This document shows, piece after piece, positions 1-15,054 of a stretch of 41,216 nt of DNA. Every line of letters begins with the position of its first letter. Position 1 is the first letter of the stretch. The position numbers and the translations under genes were made by a program. This DNA is from Synechococcus sp. AG-679-A04 (GTDB taxonomy: Bacteria > Cyanobacteriota > Cyanobacteriia > PCC-6307 > Cyanobiaceae). The stretch lies in assembly GCA_003210775.1 (NCBI GenBank), contig QCUI01000011.1, positions 1 through 41,216 on the forward strand, read 5' to 3'. The notes beneath the pieces were generated by a model. That model saw nothing but the letters and a program-made list of their open reading frames with translations, did no database searches and was not told where the DNA came from.

Positions 1-36
1 GCTGAGAGCTATACAAGACCCGAAAGGGAAAAGCAG

Positions 37-76
37 GGGGCGTTGAGTAGTCGCCATCGATCTCCCGACAAAACAA
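37..76 (+). repeat. Left copy of a 40-bp inverted repeat
   Basis: This segment recurs as its reverse complement at 10240-10279 with one mismatch out of 40. It reads GGGGCGTTGAGTAGTCGCCA and continues through ATCGATCTCCCGACAAAACAA. It lies 27 bases upstream of the start codon of the first gene. The similarity does not extend clearly on either side. It could be a terminal repeat of a mobile segment, a recombination site, or a dispersed repeat; no target-site duplication was seen. Confidence 0.85.
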
Positions 77-1228: not shown

Positions 1229-1434
1229 GTGAGGTGCCTCTCGCGCTTTGAAAGGGTACAGGTGCAGTAAACCTAAGGAGCAGGGTGTCTATTTAATGGC
1301 GCTAACTTCCCACTGTTTTACTAGCCCTATGACCGCTGTAAGCGTCTACAAGGTGCCTCTAATCTGATGTAGATAAATCTAGCGCGATGATACTTAAGGC
1401 CCGTTCTAGAGACTCTGAGGGCTCAATTGCCAAA

Positions 1435-1571
1435 CACTCAATTATACAGAGGGAGGTGGTCCCTCAATTATACATAGAGGAATACTCTAACCACTCAACT
1501 ATACAGAGAGGAAAGCTTTAAACACCCACTTATACAGGGAGAAAGGCAACCACTCACTTATACAGGGAGAA
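1435..1571 (+). repeat. Five-unit array of 21-bp repeats resembling phage promoters
   Basis: Five directly repeated units begin at 1435, 1461, 1492, 1523 and 1551, spaced 26 to 31 bp apart, all on the plus strand. Each reads approximately CACTCAMTTATACAGRGAGA, with small variations. The last two (CACTTATACAGGGAGAA in both) hold CACT, then TATA, then GGGAGA in the order of the T7-class promoter core CACTATAGGGAGA, but with three extra bases. A phage-type RNA polymerase pseudogene lies 3.3 kb downstream on the same strand. The repeats are directly visible; the promoter reading is inference. They could equally be protein-binding iterons. Confidence 0.8.
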
Positions 1572-1620
1572 CCTTTTATCTCTTGACTGCATTGTGTCTC
1601 TGACTGCCATCTTTGGCAAT

Positions 1621-1725
1621 GGCGGACTTATACAGAAGCCAATGGCGGAACTATAAGGACGAAGCCAAAATCTAAGGACGGAATATTAGAGAGGAAAGCT
1701 AAGGGCGGACTATTAGGGGGAAAGC
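1621..1725 (+). repeat. Degenerate GGCGGA-TATA repeats continuing the array
   Basis: Three related copies follow: GGCGGACTTATACAGAAGCC at 1621, GGCGGAACTATAAGGACGAA at 1645 and GGCGGACTATTAGGGGGAAA at 1705. They keep a TATA-like core followed by a purine run but have a new GGCGG prefix. AAATCTAAGG words sit between them and recur to about 1740. Confidence 0.6.
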
Positions 1726-1821
1726 CAAAAATCTAAGGGCGGCCCTTTGAGGAAGAACCTCTCTGAGCCATTCCAAGCCTGTTAGTGATTGTCTTTCTCT
1801 GACTGGAATCTGAGGCAATCC

Positions 1822-1876
1822 GACCCGTATACAGGGGAAGGTTGATTTCTAACCCGGCACGTATACAGGGGAGAAA
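1822..1876 (+). repeat. Two further GTATACAGGGG repeats
   Basis: CCCGTATACAGGGGAAG begins at 1825 and GCACGTATACAGGGGAGAAA at 1857. Both share GTATACAGGGG and a following purine-rich stretch with the main array. They have the same orientation and lie close to the 3' end of the next gene. Confidence 0.65.
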
Positions 1877-1896
1877 CCCTGACCTCAAGCCAGGGT

Positions 1897-2689: not shown

Positions 2690-2857
2690 ATGGCAAGAAC
2701 GATTAGCAGAAGTGCAAAGATGACTGATGTTATTTATCTGCGCTGTACACCTGAAGACAAAGCACGTCTGAAGATGGCAGCCCAAGAGAAAGGCATGGAC
2801 ATTTCTACTCTTCTGAGACAGGTGTTGATCAAATACCGTTTGATTACACCACTCTAA
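2690..2857 (+). CDS. Small ribbon-helix-helix DNA-binding protein (CopG/Arc-like)
   Basis: This 55-aa frame was read directly. A strand-like stretch (VIYLRCTPED) is followed by two helices (KARLKMAAQEKGMDI, then STLLRQVLIKYRLI). This matches the ribbon-helix-helix pattern of small dimeric repressors, in which the N-terminal strand contacts DNA. Such proteins commonly act as antitoxins or as plasmid and phage regulators. No recognisable toxin is adjacent; another small unrecognised gene follows 89 bases downstream. The minus-strand open frame covering the same place is a shadow. The fold assignment is by pattern only. Confidence 0.65.
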   Translation: MARTISRSAKMTDVIYLRCTPEDKARLKMAAQEKGMDISTLLRQVLIKYRLITPL

Positions 2858-2946
2858 AAGAAAGTCCCGGTTCAATTCCTAGAAGTAATTCACGAATTGA
2901 ATAGCTGGATTTTTAATGCAAAATTTTTTCACCAATCACCAATCCA

Positions 2947-3117
2947 ATGAACTTGAAAAAAGAACTAACACTTGATGATGGCCGCCAAGTCTATTCAAGT
3001 CCTATCGATAATGAATGTGTCTCCTTCAATGGCAGGAACTTCAAGCTCAGACTGACCGATGAAGAGTTGCTCGAACTCTACTTTGAACTTAAAGATATTA
3101 AGTGTGGATTGAAATGA
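2947..3117 (+). CDS. Small acidic protein, unknown
   Basis: This 56-aa frame begins MNLKKELTLDDGRQVYSSPI and ends in a leucine- and glutamate-rich helix (LTDEELLELYFELKDIKC). It lies 89 bases downstream of the ribbon-helix-helix gene in the same direction, so the two may be co-transcribed. The mix of charged residues and the amphipathic C-terminal helix look protein-like. No family was recognised and there is no strong ribosome binding site. It could be the partner of the upstream regulator, but nothing in the sequence proves that. Confidence 0.45.
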   Translation: MNLKKELTLDDGRQVYSSPIDNECVSFNGRNFKLRLTDEELLELYFELKDIKCGLK

Positions 3118-3175
3118 GTAATCAAACAATCGAAACAGGTGCGATGACTACTGATTGTGTGCCAACTCGACTTCA

Positions 3176-3523
3176 CTAATCCAAGTAAGGCATCAACACG
3201 TTTTCTATATCTTCATCAATAACATCGCCGGTGCAATTAGCGCCTAAATAAGGAACCATCGCTTTTACAGCTGCTCTAGCATTGTCCGAATAAATTGCCC
3301 ATTGGTAGGCATTAATGAGGTGAGGGTTCTCCTGTACGATCTCATCTAATATTTCATCTCCTCTTTCTTTTGTAGCGCTTCCCTTATTTATGTAGCATTG
3401 AGCCACCGTTATATGCGAAAGGATTTCAACTCTATTCATCGTTTGTGTTGTTTATGCTTGCAAAGGCAAGCCAGTAAAGGTGACAGATGCCAATACAGCG
3501 ATGATCGGAAGCTTTGATTTCAT
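3176..3523 (-). pseudogene. MPYL-family secreted protein, interrupted by a stop after the signal peptide
   Basis: The minus strand from the ATG at 3523 encodes MKSKLPIIAVLASVTFTGLP and then LQA, followed at once by TAA. The same frame continues without another stop (MNRVEILSHITVAQCYINKG and on) to a C-terminus ending VLMPYLD. Total length (348 nt) equals that of the intact paralogue at 3622-3969. The mature half resembles the two neighbours (ENPHLINAYQWA; VKAMVPYLGANC; final MPYL). A nonsense mutation at the signal-peptide junction therefore separates signal and mature parts. Reinitiation at the ATG at 3439 would give an 87-aa protein that cannot be exported. Confidence 0.7.
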
Positions 3524-3569
3524 AAGGCTTTTGTTGTAGTCAGGCATTAGCAAGAGCGAACTTATAAAA
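3485..3569. repeat. Duplicated signal-peptide and upstream segment, copy 1
   Basis: These 85 bases match 4677-4761 with seven mismatches. The copy covers the signal-peptide codons of the broken MPYL-family gene and about 45 bases upstream, so coding start and probable promoter region were duplicated together. Confidence 0.85.
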
Positions 3570-3621
3570 ACACCAAGCAGGCGCAAAGCGTGAGTGCTGA
3601 TTGTGTGTCAACTCGTATTAA

Positions 3622-3969
3622 CTACTTCAGATAAGGCATCATTATTTTGAATGCCTCTTCATCATTTCCTTTACTCGCGCAATCAGCACCTAGATAAGGA
3701 GATATAGCTTTGACTGCTTCTTGACCATTACGCGAATTAGATGCCCATTCAAACGCTGATTTAATATAAGGATACTTCTTATGGAATTTAACGTATCCTT
3801 CATCCAGGGTTTCCTGCGAAATCTTTCCAGCCTTTAAAAGACATTCTCCTAATGCAATAAACACAACCGACCTACCTCTACTGTGAACTTCTTTCTCTAA
3901 CGTTTGTGCCGGTAATCCAGTAAAAACAATAGCTGCCAATGTAGCAATGATCGGAAGCTTTGATTTCAT
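3622..3969 (-). CDS. MPYL-family small secreted protein
   Basis: This 115-aa protein has a signal peptide beginning MKSKLPIIATLAAIVFTGLP, probably cut after PAQ. A short alpha-helical domain follows with two cysteines (ECLLKAG and GADCASKG), ending FKIMMPYLK. Both flanking genes have the same plan: an early Cys, a PYIKSAFEWASNS-type segment, a PYLGADC motif and a terminal MPYLK. The family was not recognised by name. The two conserved cysteines could form a disulfide after export. Tandem copies next to each other, one of them broken, suggest recent duplication in an accessory region. Confidence 0.65.
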   Translation of the reverse strand: MKSKLPIIATLAAIVFTGLPAQTLEKEVHSRGRSVVFIALGECLLKAGKISQETLDEGYVKFHKKYPYIKSAFEWASNSRNGQEAVKAISPYLGADCASKGNDEEAFKIMMPYLK

Positions 3970-4003
3970 AATCTCTAGGCGAAGGAGTTTGCAGGATTGG
4001 TGA

Positions 4004-4363
4004 CTACTTTAAATAAGGCAGCATCAATTGGCCTGCCTTCTCTTCTGAAAGAATAAAACCACTGCAATCAAAACCGTGATAAGGCCTTAGTGCCTGCACG
4101 GCTTCCATTGCTTTATCTGATGTTGTTCCCCATATATATGCAGCCTTAAGATGTGGGTTCTCGTTTACATATTCTTGTATTCGTTCTTTTGCTAGTACTG
4201 GGTCGTAGCCTTGATACCTTACAGCGCAGTCTACCCTCGCAAGCATACCAACAACAAAGATTCTATTTTTAATCCGTGTGTCTTCTGCTTTTACTGGTAA
4301 GCCAATGGCAATAAAAACCAATGCAGCGATGGTGACTAGCTTTGATTTCATAAGTATGTGCAC
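4004..4363 (-). CDS. MPYL-family small secreted protein, divergent copy
   Basis: This is the third member of the cluster: 119 aa from the upstream ATG, or 115 aa if translation starts at the internal MKSKLVTIAA at 4351, which matches the start of its paralogues and is preferred. The signal peptide ends near PVKA. The mature part keeps the family marks: a Cys in RVDCAVRY, NPHLKAAYIW, PYHGFDCSGF and the C-terminal LMLPYLK. Its sequence has drifted more from the other two than they have from each other. It is exported by prediction, and its function is unknown. No enzyme motif is visible. Confidence 0.65.
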   Translation of the reverse strand: MHILMKSKLVTIAALVFIAIGLPVKAEDTRIKNRIFVVGMLARVDCAVRYQGYDPVLAKERIQEYVNENPHLKAAYIWGTTSDKAMEAVQALRPYHGFDCSGFILSEEKAGQLMLPYLK

Positions 4364-4454: not shown

Positions 4455-4715
4455 TTAGAATGGTTCGTAGATATTCGGGAAATCCCAGCACTGATTATCA
4501 ATCCAAACCCCCCTCTGCTCTGGAGGCGGATAGGCTCCATAACCTATCGAATTTGTAGGTTTAGGGTATGGCCCATCTATGGCTGGATTGTATGGTCGAT
4601 TCTCCATAACTGATCGACAAAGATCAAATTTTTGCTGTGCAGTCAAGGCGTGCGAAGGCATAACAATGCAGGCGATAGATGCCAATGCAGCGATAATCGG
4701 AAGCTTGGATTTCAT
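4455..4715 (-). CDS. Small secreted Pro/Tyr-rich protein sharing the MKSKLPIIA leader
   Basis: The signal peptide (MKSKLPIIAALASIACIVMP, then SHA) is almost the same as in the MPYL family. The mature part is different: short, rich in Pro, Tyr and Asn (NRPYNPAIDGPYPKPTN, YGAYPPPEQRG), with two cysteines and no MPYL end. The open frame extends upstream to 4817, but the ATG at 4715 is chosen because the MKSK start is shared with the neighbours and the 5' region is duplicated from near 3523. This looks like a leader and promoter segment placed in front of an unrelated mature domain. Length is 86 aa. No family was recognised. Confidence 0.6.
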   Translation of the reverse strand: MKSKLPIIAALASIACIVMPSHALTAQQKFDLCRSVMENRPYNPAIDGPYPKPTNSIGYGAYPPPEQRGVWIDNQCWDFPNIYEPF

Positions 4716-4761
4716 AAGGCTTTTGCTGTACTCAGACATTAGCAAGAGCGAACTCATAAAA
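4677..4761. repeat. Duplicated signal-peptide and upstream segment, copy 2
   Basis: Partner of 3485-3569: 85 bases with seven differences, covering the first codons of the Pro/Tyr-rich secreted gene and its upstream region. Confidence 0.85.
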
Positions 4762-4859
4762 CCATCAGCAGATACTAAGCATGACGCTAGGGATCGAATC
4801 CTTACAATCACAACCAAAACCTCAGCTGCTAGCTGGCCAAGAATTCCAACTTCCTTCTA

Positions 4860-7302
4860 ATGATTACTTCCAAACGACAAAAAGAACTGGAAGAACTGTC
4901 TCATAGAGAAGCTGTTAAAAAGCGAAGACGTGACCTACAGCAGGCGAAGGACAAATCATATATATCAGGAACAACTGAAGGTCGCGAGTTGTTTCGCAAC
5001 TTATTCTTGCCGTACTCAGAAGTATTAAAAGAACGGTTACAAACAGCGATTCAAGGGAGGGCGAGTAAATGGGGGCAATTCGCCACTCACACTCACGATC
5101 TAACAGAAGAGCTTGGCGTTGATTATGTAGCCTACTGCGCGATGAAGAAAATGATTGATTATATCGATACCGGGAACAACCAACTAGTTGAAGTCGCTAC
5201 GACAATTGGCCGTGTACTGGAGAGTGAAGTAAGGATCAATTACTACATTAAACTTGGCGGCGAAGATACTGAACGGCTTGTCGATGCCCAGCAAAAAAAG
5301 AAAAACTCATCACCCCGCCACAAGCATCTAGGAATCAAGTTGTCTGTTGAAAAACAACTACTTGATAAGGGCTGGGCACAGGACGATCTGTTTCCAACGT
5401 GGGCATCGGAAGTACGTACAGGGATTGGGCTTTTCCTAATTGAGGCAGCAGTTCATGCCGGTTGGTTCACTCGGACTCCAAAACGGATGGCACGCAACAA
5501 GACGGAGAACGTTCTGCTGCCATCACCAGCTATTAGTCAGTGGCTTGAAAAGGCTAGGTCTGACATTGATTCCTGGTCTTATTTGTCTTGGCCCCTTGAG
5601 TAGAGCCACCACTGGATTGGGAACTGCAAGATCAGCCATCGAGAAAAAACATCTCCGGCGGCTATCACTCAGCGCTCCTCAGACAGGTCAATCCGCTTTG
5701 TGCTGGAAGAAAAGGGATGCATTCCGATAGCCAGTTTGGGCAAGCAGCACTTGATCTAATCAATACTCTTCAACGCACTGTCTGGTGCATCGACCAGGAG
5801 GCCTTGAAGGTCGTTGAAGCGTGCTGGGCAGAAGGTATATCAGTTGGAAGTTTCAGGACAGTCACAGACGATCCTCGAAGGGCTCAGGCAATGCCTGAAC
5901 ACATCAAAAGTCTGCCGAAGGAACATGCAGAACGAGTTACCTGGAGAAAGCTTCAACACTCCATTCACGAAGCTCACCATGAGCAGGTTGAAAGAGCCCG
6001 TACAACGATGTCTGTACTGGCCTTGGCTAGGCAGTTTTCCAAGGAACCACACTTCTACTTGAGCTGGGAATGTGACTTCAGAGGGCGCCTCTACGACCAA
6101 CAGGCTTGGTTAGGGAGACAGAAGTCGGATTTTGAGAAATCTCTATCCCGATTCGCAGAAGGCTGCATACTAGATGAGCAATCGGAAGAGATAGCCGCTC
6201 AGGCTGTTGGAGCAGCGTTCTTGGGTAGTCGTGGAACCTTCGATGAACGATCCCAATGGACACGATCACACTCACAACTACTTGAAGCCATTGCAAACAA
6301 CCCCATTGGTAATGCAACTGAGTGGGAACAGGCTGACGATCCATGGCAGTTCCTGCAATTAGCCATTGAGTGGGTGAAGGTCGTACTCAGGAAGCAGCAG
6401 AAGCTGTGGCATGTACCCGTTACGGCCGACGCAACAGCCTCTGGTTTGCAGTTACTGAGCGCTATGAGACGTGATCCAAAAGGGATGGAGTTCAGCAACC
6501 TGACACCTCAAGAGAATCCAGATGCTCCGCCTAAGGACTCCTATCTGGAAGTGCTCCGGGTCGCACGAGAGTTAGCTGAGGCCGAACCAGAGCATGCATG
6601 GCTGGCAGAGCATCTAATCCACCGGAGCTTGGGAAAGCCTGTCTTGATGGTGGCTATTTATGGAGGTTCATACCGGACTAATCGTCAGGACATCATTGAA
6701 GCTTTGACCAAGGAAGACCTCTATCCAAGTCCGATCACTTACGAAGACACCAAAGTGGTGACGGACCTGCTGCGAAAGGCCAGTAAAAAGGTATTTCCAG
6801 CAGCTTTTGAGACGCTTGCTTGGATTGAAAAGCTTGCAAAGACTGCTCTAGAGCAAGGTGCAACGTCTCATACCTGGAGCACGCCCACTGGTGACATCAT
6901 TCAGCATGTCGAGTACCAACCAGCTGATGCCATCAGAGTCGAGACACATTTTCTAGGCAAAGTCAGTATTGGATTGGGAAACCTCAAGCTTCCGAATACA
7001 TCGAAATAAAGACTGGTCTTAGTCCTCAATTTGTACATTCATACGATGCTGCAGTCTTAAAAGCAGCATTCCATGACTGGCAAAGACCTTTATGCACAAT
7101 CCACGACTGCATAGCAGTACTTCCAACCGACATGGAAGATGCTCATGAGCGCCTACGGAAAAGCTTTGTGCAGGTATGTGATGGTGATCCACTTAGTCAG
7201 TTGGCTGATGATTTGAATGTCAGCAATGACAACTTGTCTAGGCTTGCCAAGGGAAATGGCGACTTGAAGCAGATTTATCAGAGCGAATACATGTTCAATT
7301 AA
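4860..7302 (+). pseudogene. T7-like single-subunit RNA polymerase (cyanopodovirus type), two frameshifts
   Basis: Three overlapping-frame pieces together cover the whole enzyme, about 810 residues. The N-terminal piece runs from 4860 to the stop at 5603. The middle piece is readable from 5600 to 7009 and the C-terminal piece from about 6980 to 7302. The middle carries WECDFRGRLYDQQAWL, motif A (VPVTADATASGLQ, with the metal-binding Asp) and motif B (RSLGKPVLMVAIYGG, with Arg, Lys and Tyr at the spacing of T7 R627, K631 and Y639). The third piece carries FVHSYDAAV and motif C TIHDCIAVLP, whose catalytic Asp codon is at 7105. The family transcribes phage genes from short promoters. Each break needs a one-base backward shift. 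All catalytic residues survive, so decay is recent, or the breaks are sequencing errors. Confidence 0.88.
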
Positions 7303-7728
7303 CTAGTCCAAAGCTAATCAGCCAGATCTATTGTGTCGCAACTGATCACAGCCAAACGGACACTAATAGTAGAGAAGAAAGCAATTCTCCAAAGCACGGA
7401 TGGAATCGTGCCTAAAGAAATTAGCCGCTGTGAATGCCTTAAAGGAGTAACTCGCGGTTAGCAAGTAGGAAGCCAAGGAACTGAGACCAACCAGCAGCTC
7501 AGCTAGATCCAAGAAGCCTACCCTTTGCGTGACGTGATGGAACAACGGCACAGCAGACCACTCCAAGATGATGTGAAATCAGGATGTAAAAGAGGCCTTA
7601 GTACCAGCGGAGCTGGCGCGGAACATGCCTTCCTGACATCCAGATGATTCCTATACCTAACCATTTATCAGGACAAGCTACCGGTAAGTGGTGGAACTAT
7701 TTCCGTACGGAAAAAACAAACAAACTGT
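7303..7728. other. No gene seen; possible decayed sequence after the polymerase
   Basis: All forward frames are broken by stops over these 426 bases. A 67-codon minus-strand open frame (7363-7566) has no recognisable features and is not supported. Short forward stretches look protein-like, for example GKWWNYFRTEKTNKLYE just before the next gene. The region may therefore contain decayed coding sequence, but no family can be named. Confidence 0.5.
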
Positions 7729-8583
7729 ATGAAATTAGCAGAATTAATTACACTCAAAAATGACGATGGAAGCATTGATCAACGGTATAACTCTATCACT
7801 GCAACAATCGTCAATCAAATTGGCAAGCAAGCTGCCAATGGTCTTCTCGAATTCTACAACAAATCATTTGAACTAGAGAAACGATATGGAGGTTGCGCTC
7901 TTCAACTCGTCATCACATCTTTCTCTGTTGACCTAGACGGATATCAACAGAAGAGAATAACAAAGGCACTGCGAACAGCTTTGCAAGAACTAGGATTTAA
8001 ACCTTCAAATGTTTCCAAGCTTTTATCTGCTGGACGGTTTTTAGGTACATACGACAAATGGGAAGAAGGGCTCTGTTATTTCGGTAGAAACACCGATCTT
8101 GATGGTCCAACAATACACAACAAACTCGATGAGTATTTCAATGGATTCACCATTGGATTATTAGACGTCATTAGCAGAACCAAGAAGCAAGGGCGCAAGA
8201 AGGCATATAGCCACTACGCGAGGACTGGAAAGCGCATGAGCCAAGCCGAGCTAGAAGAAGTAAGGCGTCAATACCCTCTGAATCCAGACGAAAGAAGAGG
8301 TCATAAAAGCAAATCTCAAGACTCAACTGAGTTGTCTGATTTAACCAAGTACGAAAGCCTTGTGCCTAACCAGGACACCCCAGACGAACTTCAATCCCCT
8401 GATCAAATCATCGGCAACTTCATTAGTCTGTTTGAAACAGAAGGCTTTGATAACTACATTCAAAACCTAGCCGAGCAGCAGCAGCTTAGCCTTATGTATC
8501 AACTGATGGATGCAGCAAACCTCTTAGCTGAATACGTTGCAGGTCAGAAAAACGTTGTTTATGTAACCCCAATCATTAACTGA
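7729..8583 (+). CDS. Hypothetical protein, possibly DNA-binding or mobile-element related
   Basis: This 284-aa soluble protein was not recognised. The first 170 residues look folded, with a helix-turn-helix-like stretch at about 85-105 (LQELGFKPSNVSKLLSAGRF). A basic linker follows (RTKKQGRKKAYSHYARTGKR, residues 148-167), then a polar, low-complexity segment and an acidic helical C-terminus. This build, basic middle plus possible helix-turn-helix, is common in plasmid or phage replication and regulation proteins. That assignment is only a guess. It lies between the polymerase pseudogene and a truncated outer-membrane protein, transcribed rightward, with the ATG at 7729. Confidence 0.55.
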   Translation: MKLAELITLKNDDGSIDQRYNSITATIVNQIGKQAANGLLEFYNKSFELEKRYGGCALQLVITSFSVDLDGYQQKRITKALRTALQELGFKPSNVSKLLSAGRFLGTYDKWEEGLCYFGRNTDLDGPTIHNKLDEYFNGFTIGLLDVISRTKKQGRKKAYSHYARTGKRMSQAELEEVRRQYPLNPDERRGHKSKSQDSTELSDLTKYESLVPNQDTPDELQSPDQIIGNFISLFETEGFDNYIQNLAEQQQLSLMYQLMDAANLLAEYVAGQKNVVYVTPIIN

Positions 8584-8653: not shown

Positions 8654-9361
8654 TCAGCGCCCGAGTACGCCAGAACCATCAACTTCTTCTTGATCGCGGT
8701 GTTGGTAGTAATAACCAACGGATGCTTTTAGCATTGGAGTAATGAAATAGCCAGCATCTAATCCATAGGTGTTCATCGCACCAGAGTCATAGGAACTGTT
8801 GAGTCTCTGCTCGACATCACCAACAGGGATCAGTCCATAGCCGTTCAAGGTCCAGCTATTCGAAACTGCTTCTGCATTCAGTGCGATCTGCTGGAACCCG
8901 ACAGTCCTCTTGTTGGTGACGTTGACGCCGGTATCGGCATCACCTGATTTCACCGAGCGGCTGTCATAACCAGCATTCAGCCCATACATCCAAGAGCGGT
9001 CACCATTCAGCCAGCGATAACCAACACGGGTTGAAGTGCTGACAGTTCCGCCAGCAACATCTGTGTTGATGATGCTGCTATCGCCTTCACGATCAGCAAA
9101 GTTGGCGTTGATCAGCGCATCAACGAACCAGACGCTGTTGTCCCCAACCGACAGCGGCAAGAACCCTCCAATACCAGCCTGGTTCGGAGTGCCAGCACCC
9201 TGCAGTGCGCCCTGGAAGCCAAGCGTTGGCTTGACCACATCCTTGAGGCTGATGCTCATCACATCACCGAGATCCTCTGCACTGCCGTTCTGTGCCTTTA
9301 AAGGCATTGGGGCAATGGCAACAGCAGAAGCCAGTAATCCAATCGAGAGGCGGCGGAGCAT
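8654..9361 (-). CDS. Outer-membrane beta-barrel (inverse-autotransporter-like) protein, probably C-terminally truncated
   Basis: This 235-aa protein has a signal peptide (MLRRLSIGLLASAVAIAPMP, then LKA). Alternating beta-strand patterns follow, typical of an outer-membrane barrel: LGFQGALQGAG, VGYRWLNGDRSWMYGLNAGY, LNGYGLIPVGDVEQ and YGLDAGYFITPMLKASVGYY. Such barrels are known from marine Synechococcus surface proteins and normally continue with more strands and sometimes a long passenger. Here the frame stops just after DGSGVLGR. Beyond the stop, another frame reads ESDARVSI, which looks like the usual last strand, so a frameshift may have cut off the end. Loss of the last strand would normally prevent barrel assembly. 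Confidence 0.6.
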   Translation of the reverse strand: MLRRLSIGLLASAVAIAPMPLKAQNGSAEDLGDVMSISLKDVVKPTLGFQGALQGAGTPNQAGIGGFLPLSVGDNSVWFVDALINANFADREGDSSIINTDVAGGTVSTSTRVGYRWLNGDRSWMYGLNAGYDSRSVKSGDADTGVNVTNKRTVGFQQIALNAEAVSNSWTLNGYGLIPVGDVEQRLNSSYDSGAMNTYGLDAGYFITPMLKASVGYYYQHRDQEEVDGSGVLGR

Positions 9362-10196: not shown

Positions 10197-10223
10197 AAAA
10201 ACCCGCCGTGTCTAATGGCGGGG
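10197..10223 (-). terminator. Intrinsic terminator downstream of the HNH gene
   Basis: On the minus strand a CCCGCC/GGCGGG stem with a 9-nt loop precedes five T residues. It closes the transcription unit of the HNH and J-domain genes and shields the TPR gene. The right copy of the inverted repeat lies just upstream of it, within that transcript. Confidence 0.8.
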
Positions 10224-10239
10224 CGTGATTGGTGTGAGG

Positions 10240-10279
10240 TTGTTTTGTCGGGAGATCGATAGCGACTACTCAACGCCCC
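10240..10279 (-). repeat. Right copy of the 40-bp inverted repeat
   Basis: Reverse complement of 37-76 with one mismatch. It lies between the end of the HNH gene (10327) and the terminator at 10223. The pair brackets 10.2 kb containing the RNA polymerase pseudogene and all the small secreted genes. Confidence 0.85.
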
Positions 10280-10326
10280 TACTTTTCTACAAAGAGTCCT
10301 TCCCTGCTAATAAATTAATTTCAAAT

Positions 10327-14714: not shown

Positions 14715-14738
14715 GATCGACTGCCCTGGAATGGTGGT

Positions 14739-14756
14739 GGGGGCCTTCCAGCCCCC
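14739..14756 (-). terminator. Probable ssrA 3' hairpin
   Basis: GGGGGC and GCCCCC form a 6-bp stem with a 6-nt loop just past the coding piece of ssrA. It lacks a T-run, so terminator function is tentative. Confidence 0.5.
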
Positions 14757-14764
14757 GCGAGTCA

Positions 14765-15025
14765 CTTGGGTGATAAGGCTGACTTCACCCCATCTCCCTT
14801 AATAGGGTCAGGCAGCAACAGGGGCTGCTTGACGGGAGAAACGTACGATTTTGTTCGCAGTTACGGGATTTGCTCTGACCGAGCAGGCTTCAGTCACCCT
14901 CCTTATGCCCCGTCGAAACCATTGCAGCCCCTTGAAGGGGGAATGGAGCTGAGCGGAATCGAACCGCTGTCCGAAACACTGGTGTGGATCACCTAGTCCG
15001 GTCAAGACCGAACCTTGTCATTCTG
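14765..15025 (-). ncRNA. ssrA: tmRNA, circularly permuted two-piece form
   Basis: Read on the minus strand, the acceptor half comes first. It ends with the T-arm GGACAGCGGTTCGATTCCGC and the acceptor strand CAGCTCCA, the discriminator A being at 14944. After a 12-base spacer the 5' strand begins at 14931 with GGGGCTG, which pairs with CAGCTCC. The tag frame follows at 14858-14808: ANKIVRFSRQAAPVAA and a stop, the form known from marine Synechococcus. CCA is not encoded. tmRNA with SmpB rescues stalled ribosomes and tags the nascent protein for proteolysis. The outer ends are approximate. The gene is a frequent integration site and marks the edge of the accessory half. Confidence 0.93.
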
Positions 15026-15054
15026 ACAGCAGTGGTGAACCGGAGCAGAGGATC

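Follow-up and report, generated by a model that had tools for sequence, protein, structure and literature searches.

Remains of a putative integrative element with a phage-type RNA polymerase gene and a structured RNA in a Synechococcus genome

What a phage-type RNA polymerase gene is doing in the genome of a picocyanobacterium is the question raised by the stretch of DNA analysed here, called the window, which comprises 41,216 nucleotides of Synechococcus sp. AG-679-A04 (contig QCUI01000011.1, positions 1 to 41,216). Single-subunit RNA polymerases occur in organelles, and the locus bears on the persistence of such enzymes outside phages and organelles as well as on the movement of small elements in very abundant phototrophs. 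Intact prophages are reported to be absent from marine Synechococcus and Prochlorococcus isolates (PMC8776855), yet phage-type polymerase genes or fragments (profile PF00940) are present in 35 of 400 Cyanobiaceae genomes and in 13 of 59 genera, and 22 of the 28 chromosomal-type rows in our polymerase tree lie outside the groups that hold phages. We propose, with a probability of roughly 0.7, that the window carries a recently inactivated copy of a picocyanobacterial integrative element with the order tyrosine integrase, (phage-type RNA polymerase), structured RNA and c3 gene on one strand. The features of the window are collected in Table 1; L, G and C numbers are our handles for loci, genomes and contigs.

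Table 1. Position of the features of the window discussed in the text, and the evidence for each.
Feature	Position	Strand	Evidence
Polymerase piece 1, N-terminal domain	4860..5603	+	PF14700 RPOL_N 4.3e-9 (searched as 4860-5600); 88% identity to L063 residues 7-249
Polymerase piece 2, catalytic part	5594..7009	+	PF00940 RNA_pol 1.9e-29 (searched as 5717-7006); 89% identity to L063 residues 248-718
Polymerase piece 3, C-terminal part	7003..7302	+	PF00940 9.5e-10 (searched as 7009-7299); 72% identity to L063 residues 718-816
Structured RNA, about 300 nt, covarying core 7386-7567	7356..7655	+	Covariance models R1 and R2; covariation; no Rfam match
c3, intact 284-aa predicted all-helical protein	7729..8583	+	No Pfam/NCBIfam match; AlphaFold pLDDT 80.6
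ssrA (tmRNA), edge of genomic island holding the element remnant	14740..15029	-	Rfam RF01851, E 5.4e-93
3' end of ssrA, probable island attachment repeat	14723..14775	.	Repeated on contig C8 of the source genome, 53 bp, 91%

Judged by its sequence, the region from 4860 to 7302 is a gene for a phage-type single-subunit RNA polymerase in three pieces that follow each other in order. Each piece, searched separately, exceeded the curated Pfam cut-off, and with nearly no residues lost the pieces are collinear with the intact polymerase of 816 amino acids encoded at L063 (genome G273), the closest relative of the window polymerase and our reference for substitution rates. A preliminary description made from the window alone had claimed a nearly complete T7-like RNA polymerase with two frameshifts in a cyanobacterial chromosome and had suggested a profile search as a check; the profile matches and the alignment to L063 bear the claim out. 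The contig also bears genes of the SMC, biotin carboxylase, Mg-chelatase and THUMP-methyltransferase families together with ssrA, which is a chromosome-like content. The ATG-initiated open reading frame (ORF) of the second piece covers 5717-7009, with homology in the same frame already from about 5594. Piece-by-piece alignment to the intact L063 places the two breaks near 5595 and 7005 and not, as first described, near 5600 and 6990, whereas the claim that both need the same shift is upheld, because the two steps between the in-frame positions 4860, 5717 and 7009 are both of the form 3n+2, which makes the net frame step the same. DFRGRLY and the stretches of motifs A, B and C can be read in the window DNA and match invariant columns of 10 intact relatives, in agreement with the claim that the catalytic elements are kept. 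An uninterrupted polymerase reading frame is not present in the window, and the gene is dead as assembled. A conserved programmed frameshift was considered and rejected, because the intact relatives have the same stretches in a single frame.

The age of the decay was judged from the ratio of nonsynonymous to synonymous substitution rates (dN/dS) against L063, another check suggested at the outset. By the NG86 method the ratio is 0.15 in piece 1 (0.066/0.444), 0.13 in piece 2 (0.058/0.431) and 0.33 in piece 3 (0.214/0.644), and by YN00 it is 0.17, 0.19 and 0.36. The values of 0.13-0.19 to the closest relative in pieces 1 and 2 suggest purifying selection on the window polymerase until recently, and on this ground the decay is taken to be recent; at the 3' end selection has perhaps been relaxed. 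Alternatively, both breaks could be errors of assembly in a gene that is really intact. The source genome, G000, is indeed a draft of 2.28 Mb in 107 contigs with 74% completeness, but long genes near the polymerase are open (e.g. an SMC gene of 1201 amino acids), the dN/dS of piece 3 is above that of pieces 1 and 2, and broken or truncated copies of the polymerase are found also in G075, G216 and G173, at other places in the gene. Assembly errors as the cause of both breaks are in our opinion improbable.

The preliminary description stopped at the end of the polymerase gene and overlooked what follows it, the conserved RNA and the c3 gene. Over 339 bp, the RNA region of the window (7354-7691) shares 92% identity with that of G273, and G075 matches window 7339-7787 at 81%. 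A covariance model built from five close copies (R1) has matches in far more divergent elements, with E down to 3e-19, on the strand of the polymerase and ahead of c3 where c3 is present, except for a weak antisense match within the L147 copy (E 0.0025). A second model, R2, matched copies outside its training set in L055 (E 1.6e-11, 107 nt before c3), G089, G134 (two), G086 and G215, and weakly 74 nt after the polymerase of L060 (E 0.0085). In a MAFFT alignment of 20 sequences (A7, which holds 20 of the 21 rows of A6; L045, which is cut off, was left out), 24 of 29 base pairs show changes on both sides, 18 of the pairs coming from RNAalifold and 11 having been added by eye. Paired cells make up 88.2%, as against 63.7% after shuffling, and the covariation score is 0.644 as against 0.205 (0 of 500 shuffles) and at most 0.149 with slid partners, bearing in mind that the sequences are model matches and thereby biased towards structure. 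G-T cells outnumber A-C cells by 41 to 20, which indicates that the RNA is on the sense strand. Searched against Rfam, window 7250-7800 had no match at E up to 10, and in 7 other loci nothing at the RNA reached the gathering threshold. On this comparative evidence, the segment encodes a structured RNA with strong covariation and no match in Rfam.

R1 was positive in 17 of 300 Cyanobiaceae genomes, and R2 in 16 of 200 genomes of a sample of the order and 2 of 146 of a sample of the phylum, these samples overlapping and the larger ones being scored with stricter filters. All positives of R2 are Cyanobiaceae, and among the genomes sampled the RNA was found only in this family. It can serve as a sequence marker to locate the elements in picocyanobacterial genomes.

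The arrangement of the RNA with its neighbours was counted in 28 RNA loci, leaving out L045, L062, a second copy in G173 and the weak antisense match in L147. c3 follows the RNA on the same strand at a distance of 17-505 nt in 21 of the 28, and this order is also that of the window (Table 1). A polymerase lies upstream on the same strand in 13, and the RNA starts 3-135 nt past the polymerase stop codon in eight loci, of which the window is one. Co-occurrence extends to whole genomes: 11 of the 17 RNA-positive genomes have PF00940, compared with 35 of 400 overall (Fisher p 4e-9, assuming that the 300 genomes scanned with R1 are a subset of the 400 scanned for PF00940), while G115 and G156 have PF00940 and a strong RNA match at different loci. 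Synechococcus sp. UW140 likewise has an intact polymerase and, at another place, an RNA-c3 pair, whereas the G273 strain carries the entire cassette. A second RNA-c3 pair is present in G000 on contig C59. The c3 protein of the window has no Pfam, NCBIfam or PADLOC match, with weak matches among relatives, and a precomputed Pfam domain is found in 0 of 42 listed proteins, that of the window included. In a Foldseek search with the predicted model, DNA-binding (helix-turn-helix) domains of ParB rank first, below significance.

The origin of the polymerase was investigated with a 42-row tree, in which 28 rows are chromosomal-type, 8 are isolate phages and 6 come from IMG/VR. It took 26 of 39 polymerase loci together with the window and L071. 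The other 13 are fragmentary, broken or near-duplicate (L039, L042, L044, L045, L047-L050, L055, L062, L064, L068 and L070), and their omission enriches the window clade for intact genes. Among the 44 PF00940 places listed, 28 have open frames of at least 766 amino acids, one of them with an internal stop. The window falls with G273, G075 and G089 in a clade of 14 rows with support 100/99, and support is again 100/99 for the 13 rows that are left without the long-branched L043. None of the 8 isolate phages is in this clade, and one IMG/VR contig, L071, is. Genomes scanned first with the window piece as query yielded no confirmed relative, whereas a second scan with an alignment as query gave 11 loci, 9 of them in Prochlorococcus or Synechococcus; a plasmid search gave 3 distant records.

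The preliminary description interpreted the gene as a decayed podovirus insertion, and the relic of an ordinary T7-like cyanopodovirus, integrated and then decayed, has points in its favour. T7-like cyanophages have integrases and integrate (PMC8776855), the polymerase gene is preceded by an integrase gene in P-SSP7 and S-CBP1 and has one nearby in Syn5, and the chromosomal-type polymerases L051, L052 and L053 do group among cyanopodoviruses. The window polymerase belongs to the same profile family and shares the catalytic stretches with those of Syn5, P60, P-SSP7 and S-CBP1. These four, however, fall in the clade of L051, L052 and L053, apart from that of the window, and the top-ranked of 50,697 phage records in a tblastn search is only 30.3% identical to the middle, main piece of the window (best 40 of 2,560 matching records), an intact relative giving 27.9% (best 12 of 2,564). 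The phage polymerases are followed by genes for a single-stranded DNA-binding protein, an endonuclease and a primase, while that of the window is followed by the structured RNA and c3, and among 7 cargo proteins tested in delimited relatives (see below) none is a virion or DNA-replication protein. The interpretation as a podovirus relic is thus not supported, and we give it little weight. In L052 (2526-6423), a podovirus-like polymerase, an integrase (2707-3750) and tRNA-Leu (2526-2610) are adjacent; tRNA-Leu is an integration site reported for T7-like cyanophages (PMC8776855).

Elsewhere in the tree, L057-L059 cluster with T7 and other phages, and there are two phage-free groups (L034/L037/L065/L069 and L038/L040/L041), which are chromosome-borne and encode proteins of about 866-1090 amino acids. 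Small neighbour genes recur beside the polymerases of both groups, and in L040 an 18-bp motif is found three times with 83-bp spacing upstream of the polymerase.

Eight of the 14 rows of the window clade have a tyrosine integrase gene on the same strand at most 1.3 kb ahead of the polymerase (L032, L033, L035, L036, L054, L061, L063 and L067), which matches PHROG_1/216 and PF00589 in those tested; the integrase is more distant in L060 and L066 and downstream in L071. In other groups of the tree an integrase lies within 1.8 kb upstream in L034, L037, L041, L057, L058, L059 and L065, and 8 of the 15 RNA loci with no polymerase in the stretch examined also have an integrase upstream (fragments in L221). 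Flanking direct repeats were found at 6 of 15 loci, namely L035 (17 bp, the least certain of the six), L063 (23 bp), L067 (20+14 bp), L222 (20 bp), L224 (39 bp) and L226 (23 bp), and delimit elements of 7.6-11 kb, of which L035, L063 and L067 contain a polymerase. By Rfam, the repeat of L224 corresponds to the 3' end of a 6S RNA gene, and 18 nt of it are common to the repeat of L063. The ends of the six delimited elements are the 3' end of 6S RNA or regions of protein genes and not tRNA genes, the latter being present in 3 of 42 loci scanned. The preliminary description had also suggested looking for intact homologues at the same locus in related strains. L063 is intact in one frame, and the copies sit at different chromosomal places: L063 beside a purK-like gene, L067 beside a deacetylase-like gene (both named by eye) and the window copy in an ssrA island. 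The suggestion that the polymerase is kept by an element is supported for the family, whose intact relatives lie beside tyrosine integrases and are in part delimited, but not for the window copy, which is dead as assembled. With its polymerase broken and no integrase found, the window copy cannot act by itself.

Several observations weigh against the integrative element as we propose it. In 7 of the 28 loci (L036, L060, L148, L217, L218, L219 and L222) no c3 was found behind the RNA, and 15 of the 28 have no polymerase in the stretch examined, that of G089 (L216) being about 14 kb away. Three polymerases of the clade, L043, L066 and L071, are without an RNA match in their vicinity at E up to 1, and the second RNA copy in G173 (E 1.2e-14) overlaps the start of a truncated polymerase. 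The RNA and c3 have each been exchanged on their own: the RNA-c3 pair of the window is a mosaic, with an RNA closest in identity to that of G273 as given above and a c3 that is 84% identical to one in G156, 21-27% identical to that of G273 and 28-30% identical to that of G075, although the RNA regions of the window and G075 are so similar. Our own integrase profile, which may miss some, gave no match near L043, L056 or the window; convincing direct repeats were not found at 9 of the 15 loci, some of which are cut by contig ends, and none were mapped for the copy in the window, whose contig begins 4.9 kb upstream of the polymerase. The RNA-bearing L225 has tRNA-Ser about 0.4 kb from its integrase and is no neat fit. 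Finally, no cognate promoter was found, a motif search giving 259.9/289.0 bits on the sense and 252.1/285.8 bits on the antisense strand, and searches for shared motifs, whether inside single elements or between them, did not rise clearly above the antisense or shuffled controls.

Part of this pattern could be explained if the RNA were a mere cis-acting leader that controls c3 and has no relation to the polymerase. It stands ahead of c3 at a short distance in three quarters of the loci whether a polymerase is present or not, but the seven loci without c3 and the independent swapping of RNA and c3 speak against a simple leader. Such a role is in part compatible with the element that we prefer and appears to us possible, if rather doubtful.

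In the integrative element as proposed, the integrase would insert the element at conserved host genes, such as the 3' end of 6S RNA, the 5' part of the deacetylase-like gene and others. The polymerase would be a dedicated enzyme that transcribes the RNA-c3 segment of the element on its own strand, presumably from a promoter that it recognises, and may make the element independent of the host RNA polymerase, e.g. on excision or in phage infection. The RNA and c3 could form a control or replication module. Since RNA-c3 occurs without the phage-type gene, the module could also run on the host polymerase. The order of polymerase, RNA and c3 poses the direct question of whether the RNA is made by the polymerase. 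It is tempting to speculate, and we do so tentatively, that these are members of an unrecognised class of integrative elements in which the element's own phage-type polymerase makes a structured RNA that works together with c3, for instance as a replication primer or an interference RNA. If true, this would be an RNA-centred mobile system in which a cognate non-coding RNA is paired with a single-subunit RNA polymerase and not with a reverse transcriptase.

Repeats resembling TATACAGGGAGA upstream of the polymerase (window 1430-1880) were considered as promoter candidates and set aside as host repeats, which may have a weak link to the polymerase. Of 400 genomes, 45 have exact matches of TATACAGGGAGA, made up of 7 among the 35 with a polymerase and 38 among the 365 others (a split counted by eye). 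With at most one mismatch, its 10-base core is absent from L063, L067 and L054, occurs seven times in L047, which has a polymerase fragment, and once inside the polymerase gene of L051. The same non-coding stretch of the window holds several spaced repeats of the form ACTTATACAGGGAGAA; clustered exact cores are seen also in other Cyanobiaceae, e.g. G396, and one-mismatch matches of this type lie near an end of contig C35 of G000.

As to the mode of transfer, the elements could be phage satellites that are packaged via a helper cyanophage, the polymerase then providing expression independent of host shut-off. Their length and integrase, the lack of a recognised virion gene among the 7 cargo proteins tested (a minority of the cargo ORFs) and the presence of one clade polymerase (L071) on a contig classed as viral are consistent with this. 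On the other hand, no packaging gene or site was identified, a strict pattern of the RNA core (pattern 1) matched 0 viral contigs, and none of the 50,697 phage records matched the RNA block; a second pattern, a 15-mer, gave 35 contigs as raw pattern matches only. We regard packaging by a helper, which is compatible with the integrative element proposed here, as conceivable rather than likely.

The elements can be compared with known systems of picocyanobacteria. Tycheposons, described for Prochlorococcus, are tyrosine-recombinase elements in variable islands of picocyanobacteria (PMC10872708, available part), and a tyrosine recombinase in the relatives and the tRNA-Ser of L225 recall them, but the six delimited elements end at non-tRNA sequences and a polymerase is not mentioned in that part of PMC10872708. 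Similarly, the novel elements near tRNA-Phe and tRNA-Cys have unusual tyrosine integrases and lie in variable islands of picocyanobacteria, but the available part of PMC10187409, compared by description only, mentions no polymerase. PICMI phage satellites are likewise small chromosomal islands with reduced gene content (PMC10803314), while the elements here, known from sequence alone, are without evidence of phage induction or packaging. The Yfr8 and Yfr9 RNAs of Prochlorococcus MED4, of 180-290 nt and in a genomic island, resemble our RNA by description and not by sequence, and an integrase is not mentioned in the accessible text of PMC2518516. No account of the polymerase-integrase-RNA arrangement was found in the literature searched, although an earlier mention is possible, the tycheposon and VEIME primary papers being outside the search.

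The remnant lies in a genomic island bordered by ssrA. The end of contig C8 of G000 (L131 7441-18283) carries, next to a copy of the 3' end of ssrA, genes of the integrase, Dda-like helicase, primase/helicase and large terminase families, and by this gene content it is a prophage or satellite. Because the counterpart of C8 30.0-31.6 kb directly adjoins ssrA in G283 and G295, C8 and the window contig probably face each other across an assembly gap, and the polymerase remnant would then be part of a composite island shared with the C8 genes. As to the claim that no capsid, terminase or replication gene lies nearby, 9 island ORFs searched with Pfam, 3 of them also with PHROGs, gave no podovirus virion or replication gene; the island runs past the contig, and C8 has a terminase gene. 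Six genomes of the genus of G000 (G231, G169, G265, G239, G075 and G123) have copies of the ssrA 3' end at a distance of about 5-27 kb from the gene, and ssrA looks like a hotspot for islands.

Gene cluster c35 recurs beside these elements (window 8654-9361, L067 7888-8886 and L066 14413-15411); two members tested had no Pfam match, the proteins are porin-like by eye, and the window copy is shorter than its relatives of 332 amino acids. A dispersed repeat of about 75-100 bp is found at window 1-76 and, inverted, at 10216-10287, so that the window contig starts inside one copy; it has 13 matches in G000, the window copies included, and is also present in the ssrA island of G271. Upstream of the polymerase, three consecutive ORFs of cluster c15 occupy the minus strand at window 3176-4363, followed by another minus-strand ORF at 4455-4817.

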